This document shows, one piece after another, positions 8,017 through 11,157 of a stretch of 11,302 nucleotides of DNA. Position numbers and translations under genes: made by a program. This DNA is from Capsulimonas sp. (GTDB lineage Bacteria; Armatimonadota; Armatimonadia; Armatimonadales; Capsulimonadaceae). The notes beneath the pieces are model-generated. The model saw only the letters and a list, made by a program, of their open reading frames with translations. It did no database searches and was not told the DNA's origin. Within the stretch, counting starts at the first letter, position 1. Every line of letters begins with the position of its first letter. The stretch covers positions 1-11,302 of the forward strand of contig JAOQAA010000220.1 in NCBI GenBank assembly GCA_025963815.1, written 5' to 3'.

Positions 8017-8895
8017 TTAGAGTTTGGCGCCCGTCACCTGCGGGGCGGTGACGCCGTTGGCGGTTACGGTGATGGCCCCCTGCATGTCCGTGCGCCAGAT
8101 GCCGGCGCCAGCGGCTTGCAGGCGGTGCAGGGTTCCTGGGTCAGGGGGCGCCTGGGGCGTGGAGGAGATCACGGCGGTGGCGGGGCCGGTGAGGCGCATG
8201 AACTCCAGGGAGGCGCAGTCGGCGCCGCCGTTGCCGGGGACCTGGAGGATGTCGCAGGCGAGGGTGTCGTTGGCGTCGGCCACCAGGTACGGCTCGGCGG
8301 CGGAGTTGCAGGAGCCGGCGAGAAGGATGGCGGTCTGACCGAACTCAAGGCGGCAGATGAGCGGGTCGAGTGAAGCGCGCGGGCTGCGCTGGGGCGGCCA
8401 AAGCACGGCCAGACGCATGGCGCTCTCGCCGATCGTCGTCTTTTCGTTGGAGTGAACGACTCGGTATGGAATCCGCCTGAGGCGCATGCGCTGGATCAGT
8501 TTTTGGCGGGTCGGATCGCCATCGTCCACGGCGCTGTTCCAAATGGATTTGATCGGAATTCGGGAGTCCAGCAAAGCGGTCGTGCCGCCGATCTCATCAA
8601 GGGACGGTGACGCCAGCACGAGGAGATCCACCTGGGTAATGTGCGCCTTTTTCAGTGTGCGCACAACTTCCGCTCCGGACGCGATACCGCCGTCGTTGAT
8701 CAGGATCGTGCGCTTGTCGGGTGTTCGGATCAGCGCGCAGCTTCCGCTGGAGAGTTCAAGAAAGGTGACGGTGATCGTCGGGCGCGGCGTCGGGCGCTGC
8801 TGCTTTCGGAACCACCAGGCAAGCAAAAAACTCATTATGGCAAGCAGAGTTAAGCCCACGATGGACGCGACTGCGGCGCGGCGTTGTGCGTTCAA
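8017..8895 (-). CDS. Membrane-anchored ComEC-type metallo-beta-lactamase-fold protein, metal site lost
   Basis: This is a 292-aa protein with an N-terminal membrane anchor (about 8-29, flanked by Arg residues). A domain of the ComEC/Rec2 C-terminal metallo-beta-lactamase family follows and is probably exported. Recognisable landmarks are the initial strand region (41-70), VLASPSLDEIGG (93-104), LLAGS (191-195), LQVPGNGG (217-224), AVISS (241-245) and the closing IWRTDMQGAITVT (266-278). Each metal-binding position is altered: the HxHxDH motif reads S96-x-S98-x-D100-E101, the LTGD Asp is Ser195, and the VPHHG histidines are Gly221-Asn222. It is therefore unlikely to be an active hydrolase. The start is TTG 8895 with a GAGG site 7 nt upstream. 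It shares a control region with the divergent ccm cluster. The membrane channel part of ComEC is absent, so this is not the DNA uptake protein itself. Confidence 0.75.
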   Translation of the reverse strand: MNAQRRAAVASIVGLTLLAIMSFLLAWWFRKQQRPTPRPTITVTFLELSSGSCALIRTPDKRTILINDGGIASGAEVVRTLKKAHITQVDLLVLASPSLDEIGGTTALLDSRIPIKSIWNSAVDDGDPTRQKLIQRMRLRRIPYRVVHSNEKTTIGESAMRLAVLWPPQRSPRASLDPLICRLEFGQTAILLAGSCNSAAEPYLVADANDTLACDILQVPGNGGADCASLEFMRLTGPATAVISSTPQAPPDPGTLHRLQAAGAGIWRTDMQGAITVTANGVTAPQVTGAKL

Positions 8896-8972
8896 AAGCG
8901 CGCCTCGAATGAGCGAACTGAAACGAACAGGACAGAAATAATCGAGACTGAGTATTGGCGAGGCATCATGAC

Positions 8973-9002
8973 ATTATATCCCGGTGCGCCAACTTCGAAC
9001 AA
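8973..9002 (-). promoter_or_regulatory. Promoter of the MBL-like gene
   Basis: On the minus strand, TTGTTC (plus 8997-9002) and a perfect TATAAT (plus 8973-8978) are 18 bp apart. The predicted start is at 8966, giving a leader of about 70 nt before TTG 8895. The -35 box is poor beyond TTG, which suits an activator-dependent promoter. Confidence 0.65.
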
Positions 9003-9018
9003 CCCCAGCGCGAAACAG

Positions 9019-9036
9019 TTGTGATGAATTTCACAA
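9019..9036. promoter_or_regulatory. CRP/FNR-family binding site in the divergent control region
   Basis: TTGTGATGAATTTCACAA is a dyad with perfect 6-bp arms and a 6-bp spacer. It contains TGTGA-N6-TCACA, the consensus core of E. coli CRP-type sites. Its centre, 9027.5, is 61.5 bp upstream of the predicted starts of both divergent promoters (8966 and 9089). This is the classic class I activation distance. The binding protein is inferred to be of the CRP/FNR family, but the sensed signal cannot be told from the site. Confidence 0.7.
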
Positions 9037-9052
9037 ACTTGCCAAAGCTTCA

Positions 9053-9082
9053 TTGCACGCGGCCTTTGGGTTAAGGTATAAT
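9053..9082 (+). promoter_or_regulatory. Promoter of the ccm cluster
   Basis: TTGCAC (9053-9058) and a perfect TATAAT (9077-9082) are separated by 18 bp. The predicted start is 9089, only 3 nt before the ccmA ATG at 9092, so the transcript is effectively leaderless. It mirrors the minus-strand promoter at 8973-9002 exactly about position 9027.5. Confidence 0.7.
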
Positions 9083-9091
9083 CGATGGGTT

Positions 9092-9703
9092 ATGTCGCGC
9101 CTGCATATTGAAGATCTTTCGATGTCATATCGTGGGCGGACCCTGTTTTCCGGGCTATCGCTCACCCTCGATCCTGGACAGCGCGTTGTCGTCAGCGGCT
9201 CGAACGGGACCGGGAAAAGTACGTTTTTGCGGATCGTCGCGGGATTGACGCGGTCCGACGCCGGCAAGGTCTCTTTTGCCTCGGTCGGCGCCGCCAGCCC
9301 GCCCCGTGAACATTTGGGATACGCCGGTCCGGACGTCAATCCTTACGAAGAGCTGACGGCCGTGGAAAACCTGGAGTTTATCGCACGGCTGCGTGGCTTA
9401 CCTATCGACGCCGACGCTCTGCTGGATCGCATGGGACTGACGGCTCGCGCCCGCCGGACGCCGGTGAAATCGTATTCGTCGGGAATGCGCCAGCGCGTTC
9501 GCCTCGCGTCGTCGCTTGTGGCGACTCCGCCGCTGCTGCTCTGGGATGAGCCGACGGCGATGCTGGACGAGCAGGGGCGACGGATCGTGGACGAAATTTT
9601 GGCGGCGCATCTCGAAGCCGGCGGGATGGCCTTGATTGCAACGAATGATTCCAATGAAATCGGACGCTGGGGCGGCCGGCGCGTCCACTTCGGCGACCGC
9701 TAG
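9092..9703 (+). CDS. ccmA: Heme exporter ATP-binding protein CcmA
   Basis: CcmA is the ATPase of the CcmAB(CD) transporter of system I cytochrome c maturation. It powers release of heme-loaded CcmE at the membrane. The protein is 203 aa, normal for CcmA. Walker A is GSNGTGKST (36-44), the CcmA-type region YEELTAVENLEF is at 85-96, the ABC signature is YSSGMRQRV (128-136) and Walker B is LLLWDEPT (148-155). The switch residue in ATND (183-186) is Asn where most ABC ATPases have His. The frame stays open upstream to 8984, but the promoter at 9053-9082 shows that ATG 9092 is the start. ccmB overlaps the end of the gene. The stretch YEELTAVENLEF and the ccmB/ccmC neighbours favour CcmA over a general ABC-2 exporter. 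Confidence 0.85.
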   Translation: MSRLHIEDLSMSYRGRTLFSGLSLTLDPGQRVVVSGSNGTGKSTFLRIVAGLTRSDAGKVSFASVGAASPPREHLGYAGPDVNPYEELTAVENLEFIARLRGLPIDADALLDRMGLTARARRTPVKSYSSGMRQRVRLASSLVATPPLLLWDEPTAMLDEQGRRIVDEILAAHLEAGGMALIATNDSNEIGRWGGRRVHFGDR

Positions 9704-10379
9704 CCGATGGCTCGATTGCGCGTCCGCCGTCTTCACGAAGGAACTGCGCGTGGAGCTGCGCACGCGCTATGCGCTCAGTGCGGTGGCGCTGTTCGCGGTG
9801 ATCACGGTGATTATGGTGTCCGCTGTGCTGGTCGGCGCATCCGTACGAGCGGATGTGAAGGCGGCTCTGGTCTGGATCATTTTGTTATTTGCGGCGCTTT
9901 CGGGCCTCTCGCGCGTTTTTGTCCGCGAAGAAGAGGCCGGCACGGCGGCGATCCTGCGTCTGACCGCGCCGCCGTCCTCGGTCTTCGCCGGAAAGCTGCT
10001 GTTCAATCTGGCGCTGATCGGCGTTGTGGAACTGGTGAGCGTTCCGCTGTTTTTGCTGCTGATGCCTGTGGAAAAGCTTCAGTTGTGGTTACTGCTGTCG
10101 ATTTTGACGGCTGGGGGTGCGGGGCTGGCGAGCGCCGCGACCTTTACGGCGGCGCTGATCGCGCACGCGGCGTCGGGGAAAAGCGCCCTTTACCCGATTA
10201 TCTCATTTCCGGTGCTGATGCCTCTGGCGCTGATCGCCGTGCAGGCGACAGTCGGCGCATTTGACGCCATCCCGATACATATTCTCCGCGCATGGAACGA
10301 TGTGGGGGTATTAGGCGCGTATGCAATCGTGATGACGACGGCGTCATTCCTGCTTTTTGAATATGTCTGGCATGAATAA
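9654..10379 (+). CDS. ccmB: Heme exporter membrane protein CcmB
   Basis: CcmB is the integral membrane permease partner of CcmA. About six membrane segments can be seen, with residues numbered from ATG 9654: 41-61, 70-87, 111-136, 144-169, 181-201 and 219-237. Before them comes the family's KELRVELR amphipathic stretch, and between segments 2 and 3 the RVFVREEEAGT motif matches the conserved loop of CcmB. The protein would be 241 aa, some 20 longer than usual, because the N-terminus carries an Ala/Ser/Gly-rich extension. The start is uncertain: ATG 9645 and TTG 9636 are alternatives, and no start lies further downstream before the conserved part. Any of them overlaps ccmA by 50 nt or more. 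No Shine-Dalgarno is evident, so translation is probably coupled to ccmA. Confidence 0.85.
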   Translation: MKSDAGAAGASTSATASRWLDCASAVFTKELRVELRTRYALSAVALFAVITVIMVSAVLVGASVRADVKAALVWIILLFAALSGLSRVFVREEEAGTAAILRLTAPPSSVFAGKLLFNLALIGVVELVSVPLFLLLMPVEKLQLWLLLSILTAGGAGLASAATFTAALIAHAASGKSALYPIISFPVLMPLALIAVQATVGAFDAIPIHILRAWNDVGVLGAYAIVMTTASFLLFEYVWHE

Positions 10380-11157
10380 AAGTGTGCAATCCAAAAATCG
10401 AGTGGTCGATTCTTCAACGGCGGCGATCCCGCCGATAAACTTTACACAGCTGCGATTCCCGAAGGTCTTGCTGCTGCTTTTGCTTTGCGCCACGACTGTC
10501 GCCGGATTCCTCTGGTTGCCGCCTGCGGTCGCATTCCGCAATCCGGGCTTGGCGCGTATTGTTGTCTTCCATGTTCCCTGTTCAATCGTCGCGAGTATCG
10601 CTTCCGGCGTCACTCTCTGGTACGCCATCTCTTATCTGATTACGCGCAGTTCCATGGACGATGTCAAATCGCGCGTTTCTGCGGAGCTTTCGCTGCTGTT
10701 CTGGGTGCTGACCACCGTGACCGGCGCAGTTTTCGCCAAGGCGCAGTGGGGGACTTACTGGAACTGGGATATCAAGCAGGGCGCGATCGTCTTGCTGCTC
10801 ATGATCTACGCGGCTTACTTCGCGCTGCGTTCGGCGATCATCGATGAGCGCAAGCAGGCGGCGATCGGCGCGGCGTACTCGATCTTCGCCACTATCTGCG
10901 TTCCCTTCCTCACCTATGTCCTGCCAAACTCCACGGAAGATACGCTGCATCCGAAGGGAACGATTACGACAAAAGAAGGATTGAGCCCCGAGTATCGTAT
11001 TGTACTGTGGGCAGGCGTGCTTGGACTAACGCTGGTTTACGTCTGGGTCTGGCGCCAGCATGTGGCGCTGGATGAAATTCGATTGAAGCTCGCGGCCAGG
11101 CGTTCCGCCAGGCGGGCCGCGCGGACATCGGGCTTTGTAGTAACGGAGACGGAATAA
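10372..11157 (+). CDS. ccmC: Heme-handling membrane protein CcmC
   Basis: CcmC binds heme on the outer face of the membrane through a tryptophan-rich loop and passes it to CcmE. From ATG 10372 the protein has 261 aa. The family's WGTYWNWD motif lies at 126-133. The two external heme-ligand histidines are H67 in FHVP and H193 in DTLHPKG. About six membrane segments are seen at 30-51, 61-91, 105-122, 137-155, 163-184 and 208-227, followed by a basic, Arg-rich C-terminal tail. The ATG overlaps the ccmB stop by 8 nt (ATGAATAA), suggesting translational coupling. ATG 10363 and TTG 10357 in the same frame are alternative starts. CcsA/CcmF share the WWD loop but are larger or differ in layout, and the ccmA-ccmB context settles the call. 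Confidence 0.9.
   Translation: MNKSVQSKNRVVDSSTAAIPPINFTQLRFPKVLLLLLLCATTVAGFLWLPPAVAFRNPGLARIVVFHVPCSIVASIASGVTLWYAISYLITRSSMDDVKSRVSAELSLLFWVLTTVTGAVFAKAQWGTYWNWDIKQGAIVLLLMIYAAYFALRSAIIDERKQAAIGAAYSIFATICVPFLTYVLPNSTEDTLHPKGTITTKEGLSPEYRIVLWAGVLGLTLVYVWVWRQHVALDEIRLKLAARRSARRAARTSGFVVTETE

Follow-up and report, generated by a model that had tools for sequence, protein, structure and literature searches.

A candidate Rex operator at a conserved distance upstream of the ccmABC promoter in the Capsulimonadaceae

The window, by which we mean the whole 11,302-nucleotide stretch of Capsulimonas sp. DNA analysed here (contig JAOQAA010000220.1), contains an 18-bp palindrome, TTGTGATGAATTTCACAA, at positions 9019 to 9036, between the divergent genes ccmA and pMBL, the latter encoding a pseudo-MBL protein. 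The palindrome, which was assigned to neither strand, contains the CRP-like core TGTGA-N6-TCACA and resembles a Rex operator, matching the Rex consensus TTGTGAANNNNTTCACAA at 13 of 14 positions. Our best explanation, held with slightly more belief than doubt, is that it serves the ccmABC promoter as an upstream operator, at about -61.5, for Rex, the NADH/NAD+ sensor. Rex is favoured because the sequence is a near-perfect operator, because similar boxes lie at nuoA, rex and one cydA in the family, and because the distance to the -10 and -35 elements of the ccm promoter has been kept.

The dyad proper, TGTGATGAATTTCACA, spans positions 9020 to 9035 with its centre at 9027.5, and its core reads TGTGA-TGAATT-TCACA. 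Two putative promoters face away from it. On the forward strand, the ccmA promoter has its -10 box, TATAAT, at 9077 to 9082 and its -35 box, TTGCAC, at 9053 to 9058; on the reverse strand, the pMBL promoter has TATAAT at 8973 to 8978 and TTGTTC at 8997 to 9002. The preliminary description had reported a pair of TATAAT boxes with 18-bp spacers and a centre shared with the dyad, and the window sequence confirmed all three: both spacers between the -35 and -10 boxes measure 18 bp, and the centre of the dyad lies exactly 52.0 bp from the centre of TATAAT on either side. Both -35 boxes are weak, each matching TTGACA at three of six positions, and a simple consensus scan of positions 8500 to 9600 listed no sigma-70-type promoter. 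From the position of the boxes, we infer transcription starts at 8966 and 9089. The edge of the operator at 9036 is 16 bp upstream of the ccm -35 box at 9053; the geometry is not that of a repressor site, with the operator over or after the promoter, but that of a class I site, with TGTGA-N6-TCACA near -61.5 of the predicted ccm start.

On the forward strand, ccmA, encoding the heme exporter ATPase, occupies positions 9092 to 9703 (TIGR01189 above cut-off) and is followed by ccmB (9654 to 10379, start approximate; PF03379 above cut-off, TIGR01190 below its cut-off) and ccmC (10366 to 11157, start approximate; PF01578 above cut-off, TIGR01191 below its cut-off). The operon had been described as ccmABCD; ccmA, ccmB and ccmC are present, while ccmD was not seen in the one frame of the last 153 bases that was read. 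By alignment, the start codon of ccmA is the ATG at 9092, 9 nt after the -10 box, so a transcript starting at about 9089 would have next to no leader, and the ccmA mRNA thus appears nearly leaderless. Inspection by eye of the five genomes bearing the site, that of the window included, showed a start codon 5 to 9 nt after TATAAT.

On the reverse strand, pMBL (8017 to 8895) encodes a protein with an N-terminal hydrophobic stretch that is related to the C-terminal MBL domain of ComEC, below the family cut-off. Its HxHxDH metal-ligand motif has been lost, the window reading ASPSLDEIGG versus HPHSDHIGG in locus L026. No relative of pMBL was found on viral contigs. Elsewhere in the window, a 181-residue frame at 2170 to 2715 had no Pfam match at E 0.01.

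We then compared the locus across a family set of seven genomes, G000 to G006, where G000 is the genome of the window and is 69% complete. A dyad was found upstream of ccmA in five of them, representing three genera: TGTGATGAATTTCACA in G000 and G001, TGTGATATTTTTCACA in G002 and G006, and TGTGACGGTTTTCACG in G004. The core matched at 10 of 10 positions in the first four and at 9 of 10 in G004. Its offset to the ccm -10 box is 52 bp in G000 and G001, 53 in G002, and 51 in G004 and G006, with spacers of 17 bp accompanying the offset of 51 and spacers of 18 bp those of 52 and 53. A distance of 28 or 29 bp (taking the 18-bp spacer for G000) separates the dyad centre from the -35 box, which reads TTGCGC or TTGATT in the four site-bearing relatives. 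The interval between dyad and ccm promoter is 40 to 42 bp long and just 25-53% identical among the five genomes, and since the spacing has been kept despite this divergence, it looks to be under selection. The proposal of a regulator site near -61.5 of the ccm promoter is borne out to this extent, five family genomes out of seven having a spacing constant to ±1 bp. Among relatives that keep the gene order, no loss of the dyad was seen, the divergent loci of G001, G002, G004 and G006 all retaining it; in G003 and G005, where the box is absent from ccm, ccmA and pMBL were matched on separate contigs.

The simplest alternative, that no regulator is involved and a chance palindrome separates two constitutive promoters, draws some support from the weak -35 boxes, from the consensus scan that listed no promoter and from the two family members (G003 and G005) that lack the box. 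We regard it as highly improbable, given that box and spacing persist in five genomes of three genera while the intervening DNA has diverged and that 400 first-order Markov copies of the window yielded no comparable dyad. The window contains three copies of TATAAT or its complement ATTATA (at 192, 8973 and 9077), against 0.93 expected. The equality of the two offsets would arise by chance in an estimated 1 case in 61, assuming that a -10 box may lie anywhere from 20 to 80 bp from the dyad on each side.

The mirror symmetry of the two promoters, on which the preliminary description had laid weight, was not kept among relatives. The offset to the -10 box on the pMBL side is 52 bp in G000, 53 in G001 and 34 in G004, and G002 and G006 have no exact ATTATA within 150 bp. 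As these offsets vary, exact mirror symmetry is confined to one genome, of which it is an accident. The idea that pMBL is controlled equally with ccm is likewise not supported: the pMBL and ccmA matches are 586 bp apart in G002 and 595 bp apart in G006, and in G002 a further divergent reading frame was seen by eye between them. In the genus of the window, the dyad stands in nearly equal register to the ccm and pMBL promoters (52 and 52 bp, or 52 and 53 bp), and co-regulation of pMBL is plausible for this genus only, perhaps with G004.

To cover more distant relatives, the region upstream of ccmA was surveyed at 30 loci fetched out of 61 genomes. In the sister family, weaker boxes were found 50 to 52 bp from TATAAT in G011 and G014 (both 10/14) and in G008 (9/14), and a 12/14 box 60 bp from TATAAT in G017; the other six of the ten sister-family ccmA loci examined had no such box. 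Outside the order, a possible box was seen in one of 13 ccmA loci, that of G029 (11/14, 51 bp from GATAAT). G014 carries an additional Rex-like box, TTGTGCTTTCATTCACAA (12/14), farther from ccmA on the upstream side, at positions 12395 to 12412 of contig C53 (L046). A search of 15 genomes for the same layout, defined as an exact GTGA-N6-TCAC with TATAAT at a gap of 21 to 51, returned only the ccm locus at offsets of 51 to 53 (G000, G001, G002, G004, G006 and G014), along with four dyads at an offset of 55 (G003 C233, G006 C43 and C130, and G002 C46).

The core TGTGA-N6-TCACA is common to CRP-type and Rex-type operators. In the G000 assembly, it occurs four times, compared with a single occurrence of the reversed pattern; the corresponding counts are 9 and 0 in G001, 8 and 1 in G002, 8 and 2 in G003, 10 and 0 in G004, 4 and 0 in G005, and 10 and 1 in G006. 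We dropped this genome-wide enrichment as evidence for CRP, as the conserved members of the set turned out to be those of nuoA and rex, plus cydA in G001, and it was these conserved dyads that turned the reading to Rex. The neighbouring frames were named nuoA, cydA and rex by reading their sequences, and the names were then upheld by family searches.

Boxes matching the Rex consensus at 12 of 14 positions lie upstream of nuoA in all seven family genomes, including G000, where nuoA is the one classical Rex target that could be shown to be boxed. They recur in seven of the 11 sister-family genomes that have nuoA, in the form of TTGTGATAAACTTC-type boxes. A score of 12 was reached in 2 of 1260 single-base shuffles of the upstream regions. 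No box at 12/14 was found at nuoA in the four genomes of genus g8 (G009, G012, G013 and G016) or in G019 and G020, where one of four nuoA loci scores 11. Four of six family rex loci (G001, G002, G003 and G006) carry a 12/14 box and G004 a 10/14 box; one rex locus of G005 was examined, out of two rex matches there, and had none. At cydA, one of 11 loci is boxed (G001, 13/14), the G000 copy being cut at the start of its contig. As judged by eye, the nuoA boxes overlap the -10 element, and the rex boxes coincide with the start site or follow it closely. Boxes in these repressor positions lead us to conclude that a Rex regulon very probably exists in the family.

Several nuoA promoters across the family (L121, L119, L137, L143 and L167) combine TTGACA with a Rex box overlapping the -10. 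In G002, a nuoA-type box with the same right flank occurs near the ends of three contigs (L134 C68, L135 C92 and L137 C180), which probably reflects an assembly fork or a repeated upstream region.

The ccm site resembles these boxes closely, as TGTGATGAATTTCACAA differs from the rex box of G002 and G006, TGTGATGAAATTCACAA, by one base. Comparable operators are described elsewhere: Rex of Streptomyces avermitilis controls nuo, cyd and rex-hem via a TTGTGAANNNNTTCACAA-type consensus (PMC5355995), and the Staphylococcus aureus Rex consensus is given as TTGTGAAW4TTCACAA (PMC2883068). Rex matches were found once each in G001 to G004 and G006 and twice in G005, and solved Rex proteins are matched by the one from G001 (best E 5.4e-42). 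A search of the 69%-complete G000 turned up no rex gene, which tells somewhat against Rex as the binder.

The positions outside the core were then scored by a log-likelihood of Rex-type versus other dyads, with a model built from 12 unique sites and not cross-validated. The window site scored +2.40, within the range of the Rex training sites (0.88 to 3.22), and 2 of 39 other sites reached this value. The ccm sites of other genera weigh against Rex, with scores that are neutral or negative in G002 and G006 (+0.20), G004 (-0.42), G014 (-1.64) and G017 (-1.75); G008 and G011 scored +2.41 and +1.36, the ccm core being degenerate in both. Across 53 dyads, both Rex flanks were present in 11, one flank in 21 and none in 21. 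Further points against Rex come from the distribution and placement of the boxes: 10 of 11 cydA loci have none, the nuoA box persists without a ccm box in G003 and G005 (as does the rex box in G003), and -61.5 with a kept spacing is an activator position whereas the nuoA and rex boxes occupy repressor positions.

This last feature is the main attraction of a second explanation, in which TGTGA-N6-TCACA at -61.5 is bound by a protein like GlxR or the CRP of Mycobacterium tuberculosis that acts as a class I activator of ccmABC, with pMBL co-activated where it is in register. We consider this possible, and CRP as the binder less likely than Rex. The position suits a CRP/GlxR-like activator better than a repressor, and the spacing (51 to 53 bp to the -10, 28 to 29 bp to the -35), held across a diverged interval, is what contact with polymerase predicts; the 50 to 52 bp distance, with weaker boxes, recurs in three sister-family genomes (G008, G011 and G014). 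The perfect core in four genomes and the 9/10 core in G004 are equally in its favour.

A suitable protein is also encoded. The preliminary description had pointed to CRP/FNR-family proteins of the host, and each of the seven family genomes indeed encodes one, at 45-100% identity to the G001 protein, with best matches to the M. tuberculosis CRP structures and related chains. All seven share the recognition helix STRETTTL, including the R-E-T whose first two residues correspond to R180 and E181 of CRP, which we take to be the residues reading TGTGA; position 185 is L, not R. The G000 protein ends ten residues before that of G001. The counterparts of R82 and S83, presumably the cAMP-binding residues of E. 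coli CRP, were identified by eye as PY in G000, G001, G002, G004 and G006, SY in G005 and TY in G003. This replacement of pocket residues counts against a CRP-like binder and makes ordinary cAMP signalling by the protein doubtful. So does the sister family count against it, where CRP/FNR matches reach just 24-31% identity and some genomes nevertheless keep the ccm box. Autoregulation of the CRP-like gene was considered and rejected, no strong box being found upstream of it (best 8/10, G005), which is a further point against this protein as the binder. Finally, TTGTGATGAATTTCACAA itself is a near-perfect Rex operator resembling the rex, nuoA and cydA boxes of related genomes, and all five family ccm sites share with the Rex boxes a T immediately ahead of TCACA.

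Dyads at a class II distance were examined for the same base. A search of 15 genomes gave six non-ccm dyads with an exact TATAAT at an offset of 31 to 34, all of them in G008 or G018. In five, TCACA is preceded by A or G, unlike the T of the family ccm sites, and the sixth resembles a Rex site. The five A/G-type dyads of these two genomes lie 32 to 34 bp from TATAAT. Judging from this pattern, the sister family may possess a CRP-type regulon of the class II kind.

The two proteins might also share the site, competing for the common core so that Rex would counteract activation at a class I promoter. The site matches the CRP core at 10 of 10 positions and the Rex consensus at 13 of 14, both proteins are encoded in G001 to G006, and these genomes contain dyads of both kinds, some flanked as in Rex sites and others as in CRP sites. 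Such sharing nonetheless needs two coincidences, and we think it unlikely.

Returning to Rex, a link to pMBL emerged from gene order. Of 12 sister-family genomes, 11 have a pMBL homologue that follows rex in the same orientation at a distance of up to about 1.5 kb (loci L006, L010-L013, L016 and L018 among them). The exception, G015, yielded no pMBL; its rex gene is close to the end of a contig. In G012, the rex-linked protein is the second-best pMBL match. The metal motif is missing in all seven rex-linked MBL proteins examined. In a tree of 30 pMBL proteins, the sister-family fork was supported at 100/99 and the family fork, which includes a long-branched row from G005, at 98/93; the other 17 rows fall beyond an 88/75 branch, and 13 of these 17 have the HxHxD motif. 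For G004, the tree includes the copy from the end of contig C184, the one adjacent to ccmA in that genome being a fragment on C70. The neighbourhood in the sister family connects pMBL with rex by evidence separate from the operator.

Rex is known as a repressor that sits on promoters; it binds at high NAD+ and leaves when NADH rises. At the ccm operator, Rex would likewise be expected to bind at high NAD+ and to leave as NADH rises. From -61.5, it would touch RNA polymerase at the ccm promoter and not block the -35 and -10 elements, and such contact could provide class-I-like help or act as contact inhibition, both of which fit. In the genus of the window, the same bound dimer may also touch the pMBL promoter facing the operator. 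A broader proposal, that Rex in Armatimonadota is a spacing-locked upstream regulator of cytochrome c maturation acting from -61.5 and tying heme export and the rex-associated pseudo-MBL protein to NADH/NAD+, is one we put forward tentatively and with considerable doubt. The published support that our search turned up for Rex as a direct activator is only suggestive; in Streptococcus mutans, direct activation has been proposed with an unclear binding site (PMC3441419). Our literature search, which stopped short of full texts, found neither a role of Rex in ccm control nor Rex in Armatimonadetes.

The arrangement combines features of two known systems. As in the Streptomyces Rex regulon (nuoA-N, cydABCD and rex-hem), the operator is of the TTGTGAANNNNTTCACAA type and nuoA, rex and, in G001, cydA are boxed in the family. 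The ccm box, in contrast, lies upstream of the -35 at about -61.5 and not on or downstream of the promoter, and neither ccm nor pMBL was found among the Rex targets in the available descriptions of that regulon. The class I CRP-dependent promoter, of which the E. coli lac promoter is the type, has in common with the ccm promoter a TGTGA-N6-TCACA at about -61.5, a kept spacing to -35 and -10, and a weak -35. It differs in that the outer flanks and the base before TCACA are Rex-like here, the candidate CRP protein is similar to M. tuberculosis CRP and GlxR with an altered cAMP pocket, and the ccmA mRNA appears nearly leaderless. Mutations in cya and cpdA alter ccm operon expression in Shewanella oneidensis, where cAMP-Crp affects the ccmF operon and not ccmA, as far as the available text describes (PMC4830989); the site reported here is at ccmA.

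These comparisons illustrate that a Rex operator can pass as a CRP site if just the TGTGA-N6-TCACA core is read. For a phylum known here mostly from metagenome-assembled genomes, they outline a testable redox regulon comprising nuo, rex, ccm and, in one genome, cyd, and the association of rex with a ComEC-like domain that is catalytically dead provides a lead. If Rex does work from -61.5, the ccm promoter would offer a defined, spacing-locked site for testing direct activation by Rex.
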